A stretch of 64,000 bases of DNA from Egibacter rhizosphaerae (GTDB taxonomy: Bacteria > Actinomycetota > Nitriliruptoria > Euzebyales > Egibacteraceae), in contig NZ_CP036402.1 in assembly GCF_004322855.1 (NCBI RefSeq), positions 2,852,001 through 2,916,000 of the forward strand, read 5' to 3'. Shown here piece after piece: positions 38,399-51,149 of the stretch (within the stretch, counting starts at the first letter, position 1; every line of letters begins with the position of its first letter). Under the pieces are notes generated by a model. That model was given only the letters and a program-made list of their open reading frames with translations, had not been told where the DNA came from and made no database searches. The translations under genes were made by a program, and so were the position numbers.

Positions 38399-38497
38399 GG
38401 GTTTCGCCTCCGGAGGTGTCAGAAGGGACCCGCACAGGTTCCGAGGGTCGGGCGTTGTCGCGCCTGGTTCTCCTGACACCACCGGGAGGTGGGCTTG

Positions 38498-39763
38498 ATG
38501 ATGCACATGCATGGTATTCGAGCGCAGCAACTTTCGGCGCGGACGGTCGGCGTGGGGTTGGATCGGCTGGTGGCGGTGCCGGTGGATGTGGGCAAGTCGG
38601 CGGCGATGGCGATGGTGGTCGACTTCTCGGGTCGGCGGCTGGCCGCGCCGTTCGAGTTCGCTCTCGACCGGTCGGGGGTGGCGGGGTTCGTCGCTCGGGT
38701 CGAGCGGGTTCTGCCGGCGGAGACGGCGTTGGTGCGGGTGGGGGTGGAGGCGTGCGGGCACTACCACCGGCCGCTGGTCGCCTCGAGGGTGCTGCCCGGG
38801 CACTGGCAGCTGGTGGAGCACAACCCGGCGTGGGTGTCAGCCCAGCGGCGGGTCAACGGCACGGGTCGGACCAAGACCGACCCGATCGACTTGACCGCGA
38901 TCGCGGATCTGCTGCTGGCCGGCCGCGGCTACGAGGTGGCCGTCGGTGATGAGCTGCTGGTCGAGCTGAGCGCGTGGGCGGCGCATCGCCGCCGGCGGGT
39001 GCAGGCCCGCTCGGCGGTCAAGAACCAGCTGACCGGTCAGCTGGACCGCTGCTTTCCCGGGCTGGGCGCGAGTCTGTCGAGCGTGCTGGGCACCAAGGTC
39101 GGCCGCCTTGTCGCGGCCGAGTTCTCAGACCCCGATCGGCTCGCCCGGCTCGGCGTGGCCCGCTTCCGGGCGTTCGCGGCGCGCCGCGACGTGCGCGTGA
39201 GCGTGGCGCTGGCCGAGCGCCTCGTGGCCGCGGCCCGCGACGCGCTGCCCACGCCCGACGCGGCGGTGGCCCGTCAGGTCCTGGCCGCCGATCTGGCGCT
39301 GCTCGACGGCCTGGACGGCCAACTCGCCGAGGTCGACGCGCGCATCGACGCGCTCGTGCCCGCCACCCGCTACCGCGTGCTGACGTCGGGGCCGGGCTGG
39401 GGGGCGGTCCGCGCGGCCGGCTACGCCGCCGGCGTCGGCGACCCGGCACGCTGGCCCTCGCACCGGCAGGTGTACCGCGCCGCCGGGCTGAACCCCGCCC
39501 AGTACGAGTCCGCCGGTCGACGGCGTGACAGCGGCATCAGCCGGGAGGGATCGGTGCCGCTGCGCCGGGCGATCCTCGACCTCGGCGTGGGCCTGTGGCA
39601 CCAAGATCCCGCCGCCCGCCGCTACGCCGCCGGGCTGCGCGAGCGCGGCAAGCCCGGCGCGATCATCGCCACCGCCCTGGCCCGCCGGGCGAACAAGATC
39701 GCCTTCGCGATGGTCCGCGACCAGACGCTGTACGACCCCGCCTGCTGGGCCAGCAAGGAGTAG
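38498..39763 (+). mobile_element. IS110-family transposase (DEDD recombinase)
   Basis: The 421-residue protein has the IS110 layout: an N-terminal RuvC-like domain with VDVGKSAAMAMVVD (first Asp), RVGVEACGHYH (Glu) and GRTKTDPIDLTAIADLL (last Asp pair), a coiled middle, and the C-terminal Transposase_20 domain RQVYRAAGLNPAQYES... GISREGSVPLRRAIL with its Ser. Such enzymes use a bridge RNA encoded beside the gene to choose donor and target DNA. The ATG at 38498 follows GGGAGG at eight bases. It looks intact. No terminal inverted repeats can be defined, as expected. The left flank to the neighbouring gene is only about 100 bp, so the non-coding part must be downstream. Confidence 0.92.
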
Positions 39764-42007: not shown

Positions 42008-43093
42008 ATGGTCCGTGACGACGCGCCGCGCCCCCACCGGTTGGGATTGCTCGAGGGTGACGGCATCGGCCCCGAGATCGTCCCGGCGGCGGCCGACGTC
42101 CTCGACGCGGCCATGGCCGCGGTCGGCGGCCCGGGGATCGAGTGGGTGCGTTTGCCGGTCGGCCGGGCGGCGATCGACACGCACGGCACGTCGCTGCCCG
42201 CGGAGACGGTGGAGGCGCTCGAGGCGCTCGAGGGGTGGCTACTCGGCCCGCACGACAGTGCCGCGTACCCCGAGCCCCACCGCTCGCAGCTGAACCCGAG
42301 CGGCGCGCTGCGCAAGCACTTCGACCTCTTCGCCAACATCCGTCCGGCGAAGTCGCTGGAGGGCGCCGACGCGGTCGTCGAGGGAGCGGACCTTGTCATC
42401 GCCCGGGAGAACACCGAGGGCTTCTACGCCGACCGGAACACCCACGCGGGGACCGGCGAGTTCATGCCCACGCCGGACGTCGCGATGGCCATGGGCATCA
42501 TCACCCGCCCCGCGGTCGAGCGGATCGCGCGGCAGGCCTTCGAGCTCGCCCGCGAGCGTCGCGGGCACGTCACGGTCGTGCACAAGGCGAACGTCCTGCG
42601 CCTGACCACGGGCATGTTCCACGACATCTGCCGTGAGGTCGCCGAGGACTACCCGGACGTCGTCGTCGACGACTTCCACATCGACGCGATGGCCGCGCAC
42701 CTCGTCCGACGAGCCGCCGACTTCGACGTGATCGTTGCCGAGAACATGTTCGGCGACATCCTGTCCGACCTCGCGGGCGAGCTCGTCGGGTCACTCGGCC
42801 TCGCGCCCTCGATCAACGTCTCGACCCGTCACGGGATGGCGCAGGCCGCCCACGGGTCCGCGCCCGACATCGCGGGCCGCGACATCGCCAACCCCATCGC
42901 GATGCTCCTCTCCGGTGCGATGCTGTTGCAGTGGCTCGGCGCTCGGCACGGGACGACACGTCTCGGCGAGGCGGCCACGCGGATCGATGCGGCGGTGGCC
43001 TCCACGGTGCGTGCGGGGACCCGCACGGCCGACATGGGCGGGCAGGCGGGCACGCGGGCGTTCGCCGGCGCCGTCGCCGACGCCGTCCGGTAG
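42008..43093 (+). CDS. Isocitrate/isopropylmalate dehydrogenase family protein (tartrate dehydrogenase-like)
   Basis: The 361-residue protein shows GLLEGDGIGPEIV, the NAD-dependent decarboxylating motif ARENTEGFYADRN, the catalytic Lys in VVHKANVLR, and the metal-binding Asp cluster in DDFHIDAMAAHLVRRAADFDVIVAENMFGDILSDLAGE. Members oxidise and decarboxylate 2-hydroxy acids (isopropylmalate, D-malate, tartrate). Standing apart from leu genes and next to a GGT-like gene, a catabolic role on malate or tartrate analogues is more likely than leucine synthesis. Confidence 0.88.
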   Translation: MVRDDAPRPHRLGLLEGDGIGPEIVPAAADVLDAAMAAVGGPGIEWVRLPVGRAAIDTHGTSLPAETVEALEALEGWLLGPHDSAAYPEPHRSQLNPSGALRKHFDLFANIRPAKSLEGADAVVEGADLVIARENTEGFYADRNTHAGTGEFMPTPDVAMAMGIITRPAVERIARQAFELARERRGHVTVVHKANVLRLTTGMFHDICREVAEDYPDVVVDDFHIDAMAAHLVRRAADFDVIVAENMFGDILSDLAGELVGSLGLAPSINVSTRHGMAQAAHGSAPDIAGRDIANPIAMLLSGAMLLQWLGARHGTTRLGEAATRIDAAVASTVRAGTRTADMGGQAGTRAFAGAVADAVR

Positions 43094-43098
43094 CCGCG

Positions 43099-43815
43099 CT
43101 AGATGATCTGCGCGCGGGTCGCGGGGTCGGGGGCGACGGTGACCCGGCCCGTCGTGCCGTCGACCGAGACCTCCTCACCGGGCGCCACCGCGTCGAGGAG
43201 GCCGGTGACGCCGACGACGGCGGGGATCCCGAGGGAACGCGCGAGGATCGCGGCGTGGCTGACCGGCGAGCCCTGCGCGCACGCGATGGCGCGCACGTGC
43301 TCGCGGGGGGTCCGCACGGTCTGCGAGGGCGTGAGCTCGTCGGCGACGACCACGCACGCCGCGGTCGGCACACGGGGTTCGACGCCCCCGGCGAGGGCGT
43401 CGAGGGCCTGCTCGGCGACGTCGTGGAGGTCCGCGGCCCGGGCCGCGAGGTTCTCGCTGGGGGAGCGCTCGAGCAGCTCGCGGTAGGTACCGAAGGCCGC
43501 TCGGACCGCCTGCTCGGCGCTCGCGCCCTCGGCGATGGCGTCGTCGAGGTGGCGGAGCAGCTCGGGATCGCGGGCGAACTCGGCGTGGGCACGGAAGATC
43601 TCGCAGTGCGCGACCCCCGTGTCCGCCCCGACCGTGTCGGCGAGCCCTTCGAGATCCGCGGCGACGCGCGGGAGCGCACTGGTGACGCGCTCGCGTTCGC
43701 GATCGGGATCGGAGCCGGTGTCCGGCGCCTCGCGGGCCGCTCGCGTCGGGACGACGAAGGCGGGGCCGAACGCCGTCCCGGGGGAGGCGGCGCGGCCGGT
43801 CAGTTCGGTGCGCAT
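43099..43815 (-). CDS. Free-standing PTS enzyme I-like N-terminal half
   Basis: The 238-residue protein matches only the first half of enzyme I of the phosphotransferase system: the N-terminal domain (GRAASPGTAFGPAFVV, and DLEGLADTVGADTGVAHCEIFRAHAEFARDPEL) and the phosphohistidine domain with GSPVSHAAILARSLGIPAVVG, whose His takes phosphate. The PEP-binding barrel is missing, so it cannot draw phosphate from PEP by itself. It could be a relay protein, like the EI-like part of DhaM, or a remnant. The ATG at 43815 is the first Met before the domain. The stop lies five bases after the preceding converging gene. Confidence 0.75.
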   Translation of the reverse strand: MRTELTGRAASPGTAFGPAFVVPTRAAREAPDTGSDPDRERERVTSALPRVAADLEGLADTVGADTGVAHCEIFRAHAEFARDPELLRHLDDAIAEGASAEQAVRAAFGTYRELLERSPSENLAARAADLHDVAEQALDALAGGVEPRVPTAACVVVADELTPSQTVRTPREHVRAIACAQGSPVSHAAILARSLGIPAVVGVTGLLDAVAPGEEVSVDGTTGRVTVAPDPATRAQII

Positions 43816-43894
43816 TCCCAACCCTTGGTCGCTCGGGGTCAGCCTACCCGGGTCGTGTCGGCACCGGCCGAGCGGTGACAGTAGCCTCGTCGCG

Positions 43895-44404
43895 ATGGAC
43901 ATCCGCGACGCGCGACGGGGGGACGTGCCCGCCATCGTCTCGCTGCTCGCCGACGACGAGCTCGGACGGCAGCGCGAGGACCCGAACGATCCGCTGCCGG
44001 AGGCGTACTGGGACGCGTACGCGGCCATCGAGGCCGACCCGCACAACCGTCTCGTGGTCGTCGAGGAGGCCGGTGAGGTGGTGGGGACCCTGCAGCTCAC
44101 GTTCATCCCCCACCTCGCGTTCCGTGGCGGGTGGCGTGCGCAGGTCGAGGCGGTCCGGACCGCGTCCGGCCGGCGCGGGGAAGGGGTTGGGCGCCGCCTG
44201 CTCGAGTGGGCCATCGACGAGGCTCGGGCACAAGGCTGCCACCTGATCCAGCTCACGACGAACGCCGCCCGCGACGACGCGCACCGGTTCTACGAGTCGC
44301 TGGGCTTCGAGGCGAGCCATGCGGGCATGAAGCGTTACCTGGAGGGCGACGTCCTCGGCCGCCGGCGAGCAGACGAAGTGGACGACGACGCGCCGGACGC
44401 GTGA
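43895..44404 (+). CDS. GNAT family N-acetyltransferase
   Basis: The 169-residue protein begins MDIRDARRGDVPAIVSLLADDELGRQREDP and has the acetyl-CoA motif RRGEGVGRRLLEWAIDEARAQGC and the end LTTNAARDDAHRFYESLGFEASHAGMKRYL, typical of GNAT. The substrate is unknown. There is no ribosome-binding site; TAGCCT lies 7 bases before the ATG, so the message may be leaderless. It is divergent from the PTS-like gene. Confidence 0.88.
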   Translation: MDIRDARRGDVPAIVSLLADDELGRQREDPNDPLPEAYWDAYAAIEADPHNRLVVVEEAGEVVGTLQLTFIPHLAFRGGWRAQVEAVRTASGRRGEGVGRRLLEWAIDEARAQGCHLIQLTTNAARDDAHRFYESLGFEASHAGMKRYLEGDVLGRRRADEVDDDAPDA

Positions 44405-44526
44405 CGTCGGCCGGACGGCAGATGGCTCCACACGAATGGACGGTCGCGATCGAGCGGGTCGAGGACGCCGAGGCACGGCTGGTGCTCGACGGGACCGACA
44501 GCCGCGCCGCGATCAGCCGCGAGTGA
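44401..44526 (+). CDS. Possible 41-residue protein of unknown function
   Basis: The GTG at 44401 overlaps the stop of the acetyltransferase (GTGA). The 41-residue product contains MAPHEWTVAIERVEDAEA and looks like a short beta-strand pair, somewhat like small DUF3006-type proteins but truncated. The end overlaps the converging dehydrogenase gene by 14 bp. It may be real or chance. Confidence 0.3.
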   Translation: MTSAGRQMAPHEWTVAIERVEDAEARLVLDGTDSRAAISRE

Positions 44527-45580
44527 GGGACACCCCGGCCTCCTCGCCGAGCGCGCCGAGGTCGTCGAGGGTGCGGGCCGGCAGCGGCAGGCCGTCTCGT
44601 CGGTGCCGTTGCTCGGCCAGGTGCTCGAGCTCCCCGGGGTAGTGGATCGCGTCGGCCCCCTCCGCGAGCGGCGCCGAGCGCAGTTGCGCGACGAGCTGCT
44701 CCATCCGCTCGTGGAACTCGTCCACCGGCAGGAACGAGCCGACGTCGAGGGCGAGGAACAGGTGGCCGCAGCGGCTGGGATGCTCGTGCTGGTACGGGCC
44801 CGACACCTGCGGCCCGAAACCGCTGCCGGTGAGCACGCCCGCGAGCACGTCCATCATCACCGAGATCGCGTAGCCCTTGTGCCCGGCCATCGGGGCGATG
44901 GTGCCCGCGATGGCGGCCACCGGATCGGTCGTCGTCCGCCCGTCGGGGTCGAGGGCCCAACCCTCGGGGATCGGCTCGTCGCGTTGACGGGCGAGGTAGA
45001 TCTTGCCGCGGGCGACGGCGGTGTTCGCGATGTCGAGGACCAGGGGCTCGTGCGCGCCCGCGGGAGCCGCGATGGACCACGGGTTGTTGCCGACCACCTT
45101 CTCGCGGCCGCCCCACGGCGCCATGGCGGGGCTCCCGTTGGTCACCAGCACGCCGATGCAGCCGGCGGGCGGGGCGAGGCGGGTGTAGTACGCGGCCGTG
45201 CCGAAGTGGTTCGAGTTGCGCACCCCCACCGCCCCGAGGCCGTGGCGACGCGCGCGGGCGATGGCGGTCGAGGCGGCGCGATATGCCAGCACCTGCCCGA
45301 CACCGTCGTGACCGTCGAGCACGACGACGGCGCCGGAGTCGGTGACCCACGTCGGATCGGTCACGGGCCGCATCACGCCGCTGCGGAGCCGATCGACGTA
45401 CCACGGCAGGCGCATCACCCCGTGCGACTGGTGACCCCAGAGGTCGGCGGTGACGAGGCTGTCGGCGACGATCGCCGCGTCCTCCGGCGGGACGTGCCAG
45501 GCCTCGAGCGCCGCCGTCGCGAACGAGACGAGCGCGTCGGCATCGGCCCGCTCGTAACGTTGGTCGTTCGCGCCCGTCAC
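44513..45580 (-). CDS. Ldh_2 family malate/L-lactate/ureidoglycolate dehydrogenase
   Basis: The 355-residue enzyme has the family's own NAD(P) fold: HQSHGVMRLPWYV (substrate His), GVRNSNHFGTAAYYTR, GNNPWSIAAP, VLDIANTAVARGKI and GHKGYAISVMMDVLAGVLTGSG. Members oxidise (S)-2-hydroxy acids. It starts at GTG 45580, 25 bases after the MarR gene, so both are probably one transcript and MarR may control it. A second member is at 61822-62880. Confidence 0.9.
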   Translation of the reverse strand: MTGANDQRYERADADALVSFATAALEAWHVPPEDAAIVADSLVTADLWGHQSHGVMRLPWYVDRLRSGVMRPVTDPTWVTDSGAVVVLDGHDGVGQVLAYRAASTAIARARRHGLGAVGVRNSNHFGTAAYYTRLAPPAGCIGVLVTNGSPAMAPWGGREKVVGNNPWSIAAPAGAHEPLVLDIANTAVARGKIYLARQRDEPIPEGWALDPDGRTTTDPVAAIAGTIAPMAGHKGYAISVMMDVLAGVLTGSGFGPQVSGPYQHEHPSRCGHLFLALDVGSFLPVDEFHERMEQLVAQLRSAPLAEGADAIHYPGELEHLAEQRHRRDGLPLPARTLDDLGALGEEAGVSLTRG

Positions 45581-45605
45581 GGCGCACGCTCGTCAGTGGT
45601 CGGGC

Positions 45606-46121
45606 TCACGGCGAGCCGTCGCCCTTCTCCCCCGTGCCGGGCTTGCGGGCCGCGAGCAACGCGCTGGTGACGCGGTCGGCGATCTCACGCAGGTCGTCCT
45701 CGAAGGCGACGCGATGATCGGTGACCATCAGCCCGGCGAGCAGTTCGCGGGCGGCGGCCTCGAGGAGGCGTTGCGCGTCCTCGAGCGACTTCTCGCCCTC
45801 GGTGGTGAGCTGCAACTGCACCGCCCGCCGGTCGTGCGTGTCGGCGGTGCGTTGGAGCAGCCCCTTGCGGACGAGCCCCTCGACGCTCTCGGACACCGCG
45901 GGCAACGAGATCGTCGCCAGCTTGCCGAGCGCGGTCAGGGTCGTGTGGCCCTCGGCGACGCGCCCCAGGATCCGGTACTGCCGGAACGTCAGCGGAGGGT
46001 CCACCTCGCGCAGCACCGAATTCTCGAGGCGCGTCAGTCGGGGAGCCAACTCGAAGAGCGCCAGCCCCACGCCCTCGTCGGCCTGGCGCTCGGTGTCGTG
46101 GGGATCCAACGGCTTCCTCAT
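45606..46121 (-). CDS. MarR family transcriptional regulator
   Basis: The 171-residue protein has the MarR winged helix: LTFRQYRILGRVAEGHTTLTALGKLATISLPAVSESVEGLVRKGLLQRTADTHDRRAVQLQLTTEGEKSLE, flanked by helices for dimerisation. MarR proteins usually repress neighbouring genes until an aromatic or acidic ligand binds. It is divergent from the hydroxyacid dehydrogenase gene, with the palindrome CCTATAGG (46229-46236) in the shared gap. Confidence 0.9.
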   Translation of the reverse strand: MRKPLDPHDTERQADEGVGLALFELAPRLTRLENSVLREVDPPLTFRQYRILGRVAEGHTTLTALGKLATISLPAVSESVEGLVRKGLLQRTADTHDRRAVQLQLTTEGEKSLEDAQRLLEAAARELLAGLMVTDHRVAFEDDLREIADRVTSALLAARKPGTGEKGDGSP

Positions 46122-46227
46122 CGCCGGGGCCTGCCGGGCCCGCCGCGTGCCCGCGGTCTCGTGCCTCCGAACATGAGCCTACGAGCAGCGGCGTCGGCCG
46201 TCACGTCGGTTCGCGCCGACCCCCTCG

Positions 46228-46239
46228 CCCTATAGGATT
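46228..46239 (+). promoter_or_regulatory. Candidate -10/operator of the hydroxyacid dehydrogenase gene
   Basis: CCCTATAGGATT contains TAGGAT (46233-46238), ten bases before the ATG at 46248, implying a leaderless message. TTCGCG lies 17 bases upstream as a weak -35. The CCTATAGG palindrome could be the site for the divergent MarR protein. Confidence 0.45.
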
Positions 46240-46247
46240 CATGACCC

Positions 46248-47237
46248 ATGAGCACTCAGCCTCCCTCGGTCGGTCCTGTCACGGTCCTGCTGTTCAGCGA
46301 CGGCTCGGACGCCGCGGAGATCTACCGCCAGCACCTGCCCGCCGGATGGCGACTCGAGTACCTCACCGACCGCCACGACGAGGGGGAACAACGGGCACGG
46401 CTCGCGAACGCCGACATCCTGTTGCACGTCGACGTGCCGCTCACGTCCGCGCACCTCGATGCGGCGCCCGCGCTGCGGCTCATCCACCGTCAGGGTGTCG
46501 GGCTCGACGGCCTCGAGCTCGAAGCGGTGCGCAGCCGGGGCATCCCCGTGTGCATCTGCCCGGTCGGGACTCCCGAGGCGGTGGCCGAGCACACGATCAT
46601 GCTCGCCCTCGCGTGCGGTCGGCACCTGACCGCGCTGTCCGAAGGCGTCCGCGCGAACGGCTGGCCGAAGTGGACCTACCGCCAGCGGTCGCTCGGGCTC
46701 ATGGGCGCGACCGTCGGGCTCGTCGGGTTCGGGCGCATCGCGCAGGCCGTCGCGCGGCGCCTCTTGCCGTTCGAGGCGCAGATCCTGGTCCACCGGTCGC
46801 GACCGCAGCCCCTCGACCCCGAATGGCCCGATGGGCGGGTCCGGCGGTGCGACGACCTCGACGAGCTCTTCGCGGCCAGCGACGTCGTCAGCTTGCACTG
46901 CCCCCTGACGCCCGAGACCACCGGGCTCGTGCACGCGGACCGGCTCGCCCGGATGCGTGACGGCTCGGTGCTCGTCAACACCGCCCGCGGCGGGCTCGTC
47001 GTCGAGGAGGACCTCGCCCGCGCGCTGGCGGCCGGGCGCCCCGCCGCTGCCGGACTCGACGTCCTGTCCGCCGAGCCGCCCGGCGAGGGCCACCCGCTGG
47101 TGGGGCTGCCCAACGCGCTCATCACCCCGCACTGCGCGGCGGGGGTGGCGACCGTCGTGCACCGCAAGGCCGAGGCCGTGTTCGAGAACGCCCAGCGGGC
47201 GCTGGCCGGCGAGGAGCTCTGGTACCGCGCGGCGTGA
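46248..47237 (+). CDS. D-isomer-specific 2-hydroxyacid dehydrogenase
   Basis: The 329-residue protein has the D-2-hydroxyacid dehydrogenase fold: the Rossmann motif GLVGFGRIAQAVARRLL, the Arg in LVNTARGGLVVEEDL, the Glu in LSAEPPGE, and the catalytic His in ITPHCAAGV. It oxidises or reduces D-2-hydroxy acids with NAD(P); the specific substrate is not evident. ATG 46248 is used; ATG 46241 is in another frame. No ribosome-binding site is seen, in line with a leaderless message. Confidence 0.9.
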   Translation: MSTQPPSVGPVTVLLFSDGSDAAEIYRQHLPAGWRLEYLTDRHDEGEQRARLANADILLHVDVPLTSAHLDAAPALRLIHRQGVGLDGLELEAVRSRGIPVCICPVGTPEAVAEHTIMLALACGRHLTALSEGVRANGWPKWTYRQRSLGLMGATVGLVGFGRIAQAVARRLLPFEAQILVHRSRPQPLDPEWPDGRVRRCDDLDELFAASDVVSLHCPLTPETTGLVHADRLARMRDGSVLVNTARGGLVVEEDLARALAAGRPAAAGLDVLSAEPPGEGHPLVGLPNALITPHCAAGVATVVHRKAEAVFENAQRALAGEELWYRAA

Positions 47238-47298
47238 CCCGATCATGCGGCCGGTGGAAGCGACCCCGGTCCGTGGGTGCGTGCCGCCGCGGGCCGCG

Positions 47299-48192
47299 TC
47301 AGGTGGCGGGGGCATCGTCGTCGGCCGCGCGGGCGAGGCCGGCGGGATCGGCGGGCAGCGATGCGGGGGTGGCGTCCGGCCCGAGCCCGGCCACCACGGT
47401 GCGCAACCTGGCCCCCGTCGCCCGCGCCATGTGCGGATCGAGACCCGCGGCCTCGAGCATGCGCGCGACGCCGTCGAGCTCGTGGGCGCGACGCTCGCCG
47501 TGGCGGACCGTGCGTCCCATCAGGTAGCCCGCGAACTCGTTCCACTGCTCGCCGGGCAGCGTCGTCCCGAGCGAGGCGAGGACCCGCTCCGCCTCGCCGT
47601 ACCGCTCGGCGACGATCGCCGACTCCCAGAACAGGGACTCGAGACCCTTGACGACGAGGCTGCGGGCGAGCTTCACGACGGACGCCGCGCCCACCACGTC
47701 CGACAGCACGTCGACCTCGCCCCCGAGCTGGGCCCACCAGCTCGCCGCCCGCTCGGCCCCCGGACCGCTCATCAGAACCGGCACGCGGTGCCCGGGGCCC
47801 GGCACCCCAGCCATGAGCGCGCCGTCGACGAACTCGGCGCCGCTGGGACCGAGCAGTTCGGCGACGCGCTCCATCTGGGCGGGCTCGGTGGAGTTGAGAT
47901 CGGCGTAGACCTGGCCGGCCCCGAGGTGCGGCGCCGCGTCCTGCGCAACCCGGACGGCGACGTCCGAGGTGACCAGCGAGCACACGAGGTCGCGATCGGA
48001 CAGGAGCTCGGCGGTGCCGTCGGCCAGCTCCACGCCGGCCGCGTCCGCGCGGGCGGTGACGGCGTCGGCGCGGTCCGGATCCTGGAGCGCGAGGTCGTAG
48101 GCGCGCACGGATGCGCCCGCGGCCGCGAACCCGGCCGCGATCGCCGCGCCCGCCTCGCCGAGGCCGAGGAAGCCGACGCGTGGCGTGGTCAC
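47299..48192 (-). CDS. NAD(P)-binding 6-phosphogluconate dehydrogenase-like protein
   Basis: The 297-residue protein starts VGFLGLGEAGAAIAAGFAAAG (Rossmann) and has LNSTEPAQMERVAELL, FVDGALMAGVPGPG and a helical second domain with VVKLARSLVVKGLESLFWE and a DUF1932-like C-terminus. It resembles the beta-hydroxyacid dehydrogenase superfamily, though the usual substrate motif is altered. The GTG start overlaps the stop of the MmgE/PrpD gene, so they are coupled. Confidence 0.8.
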   Translation of the reverse strand: MTTPRVGFLGLGEAGAAIAAGFAAAGASVRAYDLALQDPDRADAVTARADAAGVELADGTAELLSDRDLVCSLVTSDVAVRVAQDAAPHLGAGQVYADLNSTEPAQMERVAELLGPSGAEFVDGALMAGVPGPGHRVPVLMSGPGAERAASWWAQLGGEVDVLSDVVGAASVVKLARSLVVKGLESLFWESAIVAERYGEAERVLASLGTTLPGEQWNEFAGYLMGRTVRHGERRAHELDGVARMLEAAGLDPHMARATGARLRTVVAGLGPDATPASLPADPAGLARAADDDAPAT

Positions 48193-49547
48193 GGCCGCCC
48201 TCCCGCCAGCGGCAGCGCCGTGACGTCCGCGACGCCGGCCACCTCCCAGAGCGTCGCGAGGGCCGTTCGGGCCGCGTCGGCACCGATCACGGGCTCGGTC
48301 AGCTCGAGGAACTTGTCGCCGAGCTCGACGTCGGTGAGCGGGGACTCCGGGTCGCCCCGCCGGCTGGTGCGTTCGACCATCTCCTGCCTCCCGTCGGTGG
48401 TGGTGATCGTCACTCGCGCGCCGCGACGCCCGGGGAACGCGGCGTCGAGATCGGCATCGGTGCGCAGTCGGATGCGGTCCGTCAGCCGGGCGATCCGCTC
48501 GTCGGTGAGGCGGTCGGGCTCGAACGCCCGCAGGCGGACCGAGCCGCCCTCGAGCGCGGACGCCACGCAGAACGGGATCGAGAACTGCGCCTCGAAGGGC
48601 GTCGTCGGGTGCGGGTTGCCGGCGACCTCGATGGCCGCCCCGTAGGTCGCGACCTCGACCTCGGCCACGTCGTCGGCGCGCACACCGACCCGCTCGCGCA
48701 ACTCCAGCGCGCCGTCGATCGGCGCGAACGCATGCCCGCAGGCGGTGTGGTTCTTGAACGTGATCGCCTCGATGTTCGCGCGTTCGCCGAGATCGGCGAG
48801 CGCAGCGTCCCAGTCGACGTCGGCGCTCATCGCCGCACCGAACCCGCGCGGTCCGGCGAGCAGGCCCGGCGCGCCCGTGAGGCCCTCGCGTGCGCCGAGC
48901 GCCGCGAGCGTGCCGGCGTCGGCCGCGTGGCCGGCGTGCAAGGGCTTGCTCATGGCGTCGGAGCGGAAGGCCTGCTGCAGACCCGCAGCCAGGGTCGTGG
49001 CGTGCGCGAGCGCGTGCTCGGCCTGCGTCGCATCGGCACCGGCGAGGCGCGCGACTGCGGCCGCGGCCCCGAGGGTGCCCACGGTGCCGGTGGTGTGCCA
49101 GAAGCGGTAGTGCGCCGGTTGCACGGCCGCCGCCACGCGTGTCGACACCTCGACGCCGGTGGTGACGGCGTCGAGCAGCGCCGCGCCGTCGGCGTGGTCG
49201 CGCTGGGCGACGGCGAGGGCCGCCGCGATCGTCGGCGCGCCGGGGTGGTAGACGCCGTCGCGGAAGATGTCGTCGACCTCGGCGGTGTGCGCGGCGGTCG
49301 CGTTGACGAGCGCCGCGGCCCGCGTGCCCGCGGGAGCGCCGTCCGGGACGAGCCGGGCCGATCCGGTGCGCTCGTCGGCGAGGGCGGCTCGCAGCGCGCG
49401 GGCGGGGGGCCGGTCACCGCCCACGGCTGCGGCGGCGAACCAATCCACCACTGCTCGGGTCGCGTGGTGGGCGACGTCGGGACGCGGCCGGCTCGTGGTG
49501 GCGACGTAATCGCCGAGGCGCCCCTCGACGGTGCGGTCCTCGGCCAT
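48189..49547 (-). CDS. MmgE/PrpD family protein
   Basis: The 452-residue protein matches the PrpD/cis-aconitate decarboxylase superfamily: VVDWFAAAAVGGDRPPARAL, VNATAAHTAEVDDIF... HPGAPTIAAALAVA, FWHTTGTVGTLGAAAAVARL, KPLHAGHAADAGTLAALGAREG and FKNHTACGHAFAPIDGAL. Members dehydrate 2-methylcitrate or act on cis-aconitate or itaconate-like acids. The ATG at 49547 fits GGAG five bases upstream; a GTG at 49553 is also possible. It leads the operon with the dehydrogenase-like gene. Confidence 0.9.
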   Translation of the reverse strand: MAEDRTVEGRLGDYVATTSRPRPDVAHHATRAVVDWFAAAAVGGDRPPARALRAALADERTGSARLVPDGAPAGTRAAALVNATAAHTAEVDDIFRDGVYHPGAPTIAAALAVAQRDHADGAALLDAVTTGVEVSTRVAAAVQPAHYRFWHTTGTVGTLGAAAAVARLAGADATQAEHALAHATTLAAGLQQAFRSDAMSKPLHAGHAADAGTLAALGAREGLTGAPGLLAGPRGFGAAMSADVDWDAALADLGERANIEAITFKNHTACGHAFAPIDGALELRERVGVRADDVAEVEVATYGAAIEVAGNPHPTTPFEAQFSIPFCVASALEGGSVRLRAFEPDRLTDERIARLTDRIRLRTDADLDAAFPGRRGARVTITTTDGRQEMVERTSRRGDPESPLTDVELGDKFLELTEPVIGADAARTALATLWEVAGVADVTALPLAGGRP

Positions 49548-49569
49548 CGCCACTCCGTCCGTCGTCGCC

Positions 49570-49682
49570 GGTTCACCCGGTCCGGCCCGGGGGTTGGTTC
49601 ACCCGGTCCGGCCCGGGGGTTGCGCCAGCGCGCGCCCTGTCATTTCTTGGCGTGGGCCGCGTCATTTCTTGGCGTGGGCCGC
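49570..49682. repeat. Two adjacent tandem duplications (26 bp and 22 bp)
   Basis: Bases 49570-49595 are repeated exactly at 49596-49621. After an 18-base gap, 49640-49660 is repeated at 49662-49682 (period 22). The second pair covers the last codons and stop of the flavoprotein gene, so the stop region is present twice. Confidence 0.9.
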
Positions 49683-51149
49683 AGCCTGGTCGCCGGCGAT
49701 GCGGCCCACCACCGCGCCCCGGGTCAGCCCCGCTCCGGCCGGGTAGTTGTGGTAGAAGAACCCACCGGTCAGCTCGCCGGTCGCGTAGAGCCCGTGCATG
49801 GGCCGCCCCGCGGTGTCGATCACCCGGGCCTGCTCGTCGATGCGAACGCCGCCGTAGGTGAACGTGATGCCGCACGTCACCCGGTAGGCGACGTACGGGG
49901 GCTGGTCGAGGGGCACCGCCCAGTTCGACTTCACCGGCTGGCCCTGCGGCTCGGCACGCAGCCCGTCCTTCGAGAACGGGTCGAATCCGCCGTCCTTGGT
50001 CGCCGCGTTGAACTCCTCCACGGTCTGCTCGAGCGCATGGACGGGGATCCCGAGCTTGCCGGCGAGCTCGGCCAGCGTGTCCGCTTCCACCGGTGTGCCG
50101 GTCTCGTAACGCGGCTCGAGCAGGTGCACGGTCTTCTGGTCGAAGATCTGGGCGGCGAGCGCCTGCGGTTGCCGGCGGATCGCGCCGCCGGTCTTGGCGT
50201 ACGTGAGCCAGACCTCGTCCTCGCCCTCGTCGACGAACCGCTGCCCCTCGATGTTCACCAGGAGGCTGTAGGGGTACGAGTAGCGGCTCATCTTGTCGGT
50301 CAGCGACAGGTCGCCGACCTTCGGCGCGTCGGCGTCCAGCGGGCTCGCGTGGCAGCCGCCCCAGTGGCCCTCCGGTTGCGCCCCGGCGTCCAGTGCCTTC
50401 TGCAGCATCGTGCCGGTGTTGAACCGGGTGCCGCGCACCTTCACGAGGTCCCAGCCCGAGCCGAGGTAGCGCTCGCGCATCTCCGGGTTGGCCTCGAACC
50501 CTCCGGCGGCCAGCACGACCGTGCCGTGGAGATCGATGTCGCGGTCGATCCCGCGCACGCGGACGCCGGTGACCGTGTTTCCCTGGGTGAGCAGGTCGTC
50601 GGCCGGCGACTCGTACCAGACCTCGATGCCGGCGCGCTCGACTGCCTCGAAGAGGTTGGTCATGAGCCCCACGCCCTCGTCCACGACGCGGAGCGCGCCG
50701 CCGGCGGGCAGCACGTAGGTCTCGTCCGGGTCGATCTTGTCGGGGTCGACGAGCTTGCCGACCGTGAGCTCCCAGCGGACGCCGCGGTCGCGCATCCACT
50801 CGACCGTCTCGTAGGAGCGGCTGATGAGCAGGTCGAGGAGCTGCGGGTCGGCGCGCCCGCCCGAGGTGGCCTGCGCGTCGGCGTAGTACTCCTCCGCCGG
50901 ATAGGGGCCGACCTCGACCTGGTCCACCCAGTGGGCGAACTCCGGGTCGAGCAGGGGCCGCAGCGACTCCGGTCCATCGTGGGCGATGCGGAAGATCGCG
51001 CCCGCGAAGCGGCTGTTGCCGCCGCGTTCCTCCTTCGGCGCCGCCTCCAGCACGAGCACGCGCGCCCCCGCCTCGTGCGCGGAGAGCGCGGCGACGAGCG
51101 CGGCGTTGCCCGCTCCCACCACGATGACGTCGTAGTCGTCGTTGGCCAC
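49662..51149 (-). CDS. FAD-dependent dehydrogenase, tricarballylate dehydrogenase (TcuA)-like
   Basis: The 495-residue flavoprotein starts with the dinucleotide fold VIVVGAGNAALVAALSAHEAGARVLVLEAAPKEERGGNS, very like TcuA and related to fumarate reductase flavoproteins. GTVVLAAGGFEANPEMRERYLG, GEDEVWLTYAKTGG and the C-terminal GITFTYGGVRIDEQARV... GLYATGELTGGFFYHNYPAG are the other family landmarks. It probably oxidises a tricarboxylic or related acid, for example tricarballylate to cis-aconitate, which would feed the aconitate-type enzymes nearby. The start is GTG at 51149. Confidence 0.85.
   Translation of the reverse strand: MANDDYDVIVVGAGNAALVAALSAHEAGARVLVLEAAPKEERGGNSRFAGAIFRIAHDGPESLRPLLDPEFAHWVDQVEVGPYPAEEYYADAQATSGGRADPQLLDLLISRSYETVEWMRDRGVRWELTVGKLVDPDKIDPDETYVLPAGGALRVVDEGVGLMTNLFEAVERAGIEVWYESPADDLLTQGNTVTGVRVRGIDRDIDLHGTVVLAAGGFEANPEMRERYLGSGWDLVKVRGTRFNTGTMLQKALDAGAQPEGHWGGCHASPLDADAPKVGDLSLTDKMSRYSYPYSLLVNIEGQRFVDEGEDEVWLTYAKTGGAIRRQPQALAAQIFDQKTVHLLEPRYETGTPVEADTLAELAGKLGIPVHALEQTVEEFNAATKDGGFDPFSKDGLRAEPQGQPVKSNWAVPLDQPPYVAYRVTCGITFTYGGVRIDEQARVIDTAGRPMHGLYATGELTGGFFYHNYPAGAGLTRGAVVGRIAGDQAAAHAKK

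Follow-up and report, generated by a model that had tools for sequence, protein, structure and literature searches.

A stand-alone N-terminal half of PTS enzyme I in Egibacter rhizosphaerae: origin and possible exchange of phosphate with DhaM

What can half of an enzyme I do in a genome in which the other half is missing from its side? The question is raised by a gene on the reverse strand at 43099-43815 of a 64,000-nucleotide stretch of Egibacter rhizosphaerae DNA (contig NZ_CP036402.1, 2,852,001 to 2,916,000; the whole of this stretch is called the window, and its positions are used for the locus below). The gene encodes 238 aa that the original prediction described as a free-standing N-terminal half (EIN) of PTS enzyme I.

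The gene and its encoded domain

The reading frame runs from an ATG at 43815 to a TAG at 43099-43101, and AAGGG at 43822-43826 on the same reverse strand, 6 nt 5′ of the ATG, is a putative ribosome-binding site by reading of the sequence. Two Pfam domains, both scoring over the Pfam cut-off, were identified in the protein (P0001): PF05524 (PEP-utilisers_N, the HPr-binding helical part plus the first strand) at residues 6-126 (43438-43800, reverse strand; profile positions 1-121 of 121, E 7.2e-23), and PF00391 (the PEP-utilizers mobile phosphohistidine domain) at residues 153-223 (43147-43359, reverse strand; profile positions 4-72 of 72, E 1.1e-20), with nucleotide coordinates calculated from the residue numbers. 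Solved enzyme I structures match residues 3-233 in phmmer, with E values down to 7e-29. In the alignment with E. coli EIN, from which positions were counted, Arg126 pairs with Arg126, Thr166 with Thr168 and His187 with His189. The His187 codon, in the motif GSPVSHAAILAR, occupies 43255-43257 (reverse strand), and the residue is invariant in the clade to which the protein belongs.

The Pfam search of the 238 residues at E up to 0.001 returned no other domain, neither the C-terminal PEP-binding barrel and dimerisation domain nor EIIA-Man or HPr. The C-terminus is the end of the EIN domain, and a genome-wide six-frame search placed no PEP barrel at the locus. Against TIGR01417, the NCBIfam model of full-length PtsI, the protein scores 118.6 bits, below the cut-off of 341.7; it aligns with positions 256-472 of NF008478, the model of DhaM, and, having no EIIA-Man or HPr domain, is not a DhaM. 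With both EIN domains complete, His187 present and the barrel absent, the description as a free-standing N-terminal half is borne out. This intact truncated enzyme I is real, and it is best seen as an unusual remnant, or a minor variant, of a familiar protein and not as a new kind of system. Laboratory EIN (PDB 1zym, 3eza and 5woy, with chains of 248-258 residues) is the same domain to within some ten to twenty residues, but those are constructs, whereas P0001 comes from a natural gene. In our literature search no publication on a naturally occurring EIN of this stand-alone kind came up, which does not prove that none exists.

Descent from full-length enzymes I of fructose-type operons

The tree comprised 43 rows, made up of 52 loci less 11 partial rows, together with P0001 and DhaM; the genome's own DhaM is present twice (P0002 and L027). 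In the maximum-likelihood tree P0001 lies in a 14-row clade of full-length enzymes I (support 97/93), next to the proteins of G026 and G029 (94/87), and thus groups with fructose-type enzymes I, not with DhaM. Its best full-length matches are complete enzymes I, 48-54% identical. Since the closest relatives are full-length and P0001 lies inside their clade, it is an enzyme I cut at its C-terminal side, ending near the domain boundary. Taken together, sequence comparison, the tree and the genome searches show that the EIN gene derives from a full-length enzyme I such as is encoded in the fructose-type PTS operons of related genomes.

The PtsI proteins (TIGR01417) of such operons in G026, G029 and G001 are 50-52% identical to P0001 over the whole EIN half and share its start region and the active-site motif GSP(T/V)SHAAI, whereas P0001 has no linker and no PEP-binding/dimerisation half and is encoded outside a PTS operon. 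From our reading of the translations, enzyme I is presumably preceded by EIIBC in G026 and G029, and by what we take to be a DeoR-type regulator, a fruK-like kinase, EIIA and EIIBC in G001. We likewise take a gene in G007 to be glycerate-kinase-like, and enzyme I is presumably the only PTS gene in the readable part of that contig.

How rare is the truncated form? Matches were obtained in 21 of 30 genomes of the order (E up to 1e-8) and in 35 of 66 genomes of the class (E up to 1e-20), the latter at 44 places. We checked 37 of these places for a following PEP barrel, which is present in the same frame at 34, sometimes in part where the fetched stretch or the contig ends; the remaining three are the EIN gene itself, a match in G028 at the end of a contig and, in G002, a broken gene. 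A further seven places have open frames of 561-1030 aa and are unlikely to be stand-alone EIN, although frame length is no proof. Thus no second stand-alone EIN was confirmed among the 66 class genomes, which include no other member of the genus, and this genome is the only case found. At least 148 of 396 genomes matched in a phylum-wide search in which short frames were partly checked. A search of genome contigs with P0001 gave one distant match, and a plasmid search matched 227 records, the 25 listed being labeled ptsP or 'none' or left unannotated.

Two apparent exceptions were rejected. The short matches in G028 are two contig ends, and a DhaM locus in G010 (L024) that seemed to lack EIC has its barrel in another frame; the DhaM fusion gene there shifts frame within the EI domain, possibly through an assembly error or because the gene is broken. 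In G002, which belongs to the same family, a related enzyme I at about 8100-9120 of L045 is broken, with the N-terminal part missing and barrel pieces in different frames. The frame adjoining it is, as we read the translation, presumably methyltransferase-like.

DhaM as the candidate partner

The genome is a single contig of 4,637,169 bases and holds two matches to PF05524, namely the stand-alone EIN and an 835-aa DhaM that combines EIIA-Man, HPr and a complete enzyme I in one protein. HPr was found genome-wide in DhaM only, with no separate HPr, and the genome-wide search for PTS EIIC found none. PF02896, the PEP barrel, is found in DhaM, where it is complete, in one orphan PPDK fragment, and nowhere else in the genome. 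The original prediction that no other PTS gene is near agrees with these searches, as all other enzyme I, HPr and EIIC matches fall outside the window. Its companion statement on Dha genes needs qualification: none was found linked to the EIN gene, but a Dha operon lies about 0.21-0.24 Mb from the window, with the DhaM gene about 234 kb from the EIN gene. Near DhaM are DhaK, DhaL and GlpK, each over its NCBIfam cut-off, and a MIP-family channel over its subfamily cut-off. The proposed search for HPr or DhaKLM partners gives one possible partner, the EIIA-HPr-enzyme I fusion DhaM.

In enzyme I, EIC accepts the phosphate of PEP and the EIN histidine hands it on to HPr, according to PMC8295985 and PMC5537066, and the former describes isolated T. 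tengcongensis EIN as being phosphorylated with catalytic enzyme I, HPr and excess PEP. By this chemistry DhaM could load P0001 with phosphate. According to PMC13099321, DhaM of E. coli has a truncated EI as its last domain. That E. coli form (NF008478) resembles P0001 in having an EI domain cut short, whereas P0001 is EIN alone and carries neither EIIA nor HPr.

In this history the ancestral full-length enzyme I lost its PEP-binding half, and the gene now sits among genes of organic-acid catabolism, in a genome that lacks the rest of that PTS. It follows from established enzyme I biochemistry that an EIN lacking the barrel cannot take up phosphate from PEP by itself. If made, it would most likely exchange phosphate with the HPr domain of DhaM, as no other HPr was found genome-wide; PEP would then enter at DhaM's own EI part, and EIN would probably serve the dihydroxyacetone phosphorelay as a side pocket or modulator and would not form a pathway of its own. 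We give slightly less than even weight to this combined reading, a leftover EIN from a fructose-type enzyme I that, if made, exchanges phosphate with DhaM's HPr domain, in which we infer the expression, the binding and any effect in the cell. A stronger version, in which evolution has retained EIN as a second phosphohistidine carrier that works with the self-contained DhaM, reporting or buffering the PEP/pyruvate state and linking that state to the surrounding organic-acid cluster, seems improbable to us. Should EIN be made and phosphorylated, it would represent a natural, stand-alone form of a domain that we encountered elsewhere only in laboratory constructs or within the DhaM fusion, and an example of a phosphorelay domain outliving its pathway.

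Relic, constraint and the neighboring genes

While a role is plausible, a mere leftover is nearly as likely. The gene could be a remnant, without function, of a fructose PTS that has been lost, truncated so recently that its frame has not yet decayed, and we regard this as a serious contender that falls somewhat short of even probability; in that case the gene would mark the loss of the fructose-type PTS in this lineage. It is consistent with the stand-alone form being the only one found among the 66 class genomes, with a genome devoid of EIIC and separate HPr, with an enzyme I of the same kind broken across frames in a member of the family (G002), and with the orphan C-terminal PPDK fragment, which indicates that broken members of the superfamily persist in this genome. 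The longer branch of P0001 points the same way: its maximum-likelihood end branch is 1.03 changes per site, compared with 0.42 and 0.58 for the two sister rows when lengths are summed from the shared node, so that its evolution may have sped up somewhat. The full-length row L010 has a branch of 1.06, and relative-rate tests of P0001 with L005 and L007 against five outgroups gave 10 comparisons with p 0.20-1.0, none of them significant.

Against a relic stand the retained positions, the composition and the place of the break. Across the other 13 rows of the clade 47 columns are invariant, and P0001 keeps 42 of them (0.89, within the 0.80-1.00 of leave-one-out values for the full-length rows), including Arg126, Thr166 and His187; those lost are A17G, F111Y, D131H, A167V and A175R. 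No stop or frameshift occurs within the 238 codons, and GC at the three codon positions (0.80/0.56/0.93) is normal, lying at each within the range of 12 neighboring genes. The retained positions, the composition and the relative-rate tests together give no impression of an old pseudogene. However, an open frame alone is weak evidence in a GC-rich genome, and if the cut was recent, the retained positions and normal composition would merely have been inherited. What speaks most for a domain that has been retained, though circumstantially, is where the break lies: random truncation of a protein of ~570 residues would presumably seldom hit the EIN boundary. A truncated pseudogene with full-length enzyme I at this locus in close relatives had been named as the finding that would speak against the original prediction; full-length enzymes I of the same clade do exist in related genomes, but those examined lie at other loci, and the gene bears no sign of long decay.

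Could the partners be next door? A beta-decarboxylating dehydrogenase gene of the isopropylmalate/homoisocitrate/tartrate type (42008-43093, forward strand; below all listed cut-offs) converges on EIN, and with 5 nt between the two stops there is no room for a barrel remnant between them. On the other side a GNAT acetyltransferase gene (43895-44404, forward strand) diverges, with 79 bp between the starts. Being convergent to one neighbor and divergent from the other, EIN is not in an operon. A sigma-70 scan, ill-suited to a GC-rich genome, detected no promoter-like site for the gene, and terminator and repeat scans at the locus gave nothing useful. The surroundings have led us to consider EIN as a regulator or relay whose phosphorylation state, set by PEP/pyruvate via DhaM, controls how active a neighboring enzyme or GNAT is. 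Its position within a cluster of dehydrogenase genes that includes a TcuA-type tricarballylate dehydrogenase, and the GNAT gene starting so close by, would fit. Yet the absence of an operon speaks against it, as do the GNAT homologues of G026 and G023, which adjoin neither EIN nor another tested window gene, and we consider it very unlikely. None of 13 window genes is shared with the enzyme I loci of eight relatives. The suggestion that EIN relays phosphate in an unknown circuit, or regulates, stays a conjecture, with a candidate partner about 234 kb away, DhaM, and no arrangement with neighbors seen to recur elsewhere. A split enzyme I, with the PEP-binding half encoded elsewhere and acting in trans, is extremely improbable, since the second PF02896 match in the genome, the 222-aa orphan at G000:C1:285258-285926 (L037, L035), is the last, C-terminal part of a PPDK (TIGR01828 positions 653-865) in which some 90 positions are missing from the start of the barrel profile, and the genome search gave no other EIC outside DhaM.

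The TcuA-type gene, whose product scores above the NCBIfam cut-off for an FAD tricarballylate dehydrogenase, lies at 49662-51149 of the window, with the neighbors of its dehydrogenase cluster at 42008-49553, and the region is possibly one of tricarboxylate or organic-acid catabolism. Near this cluster, an ORF at 38489-39763 resembles what we take to be an IS110-family transposase.
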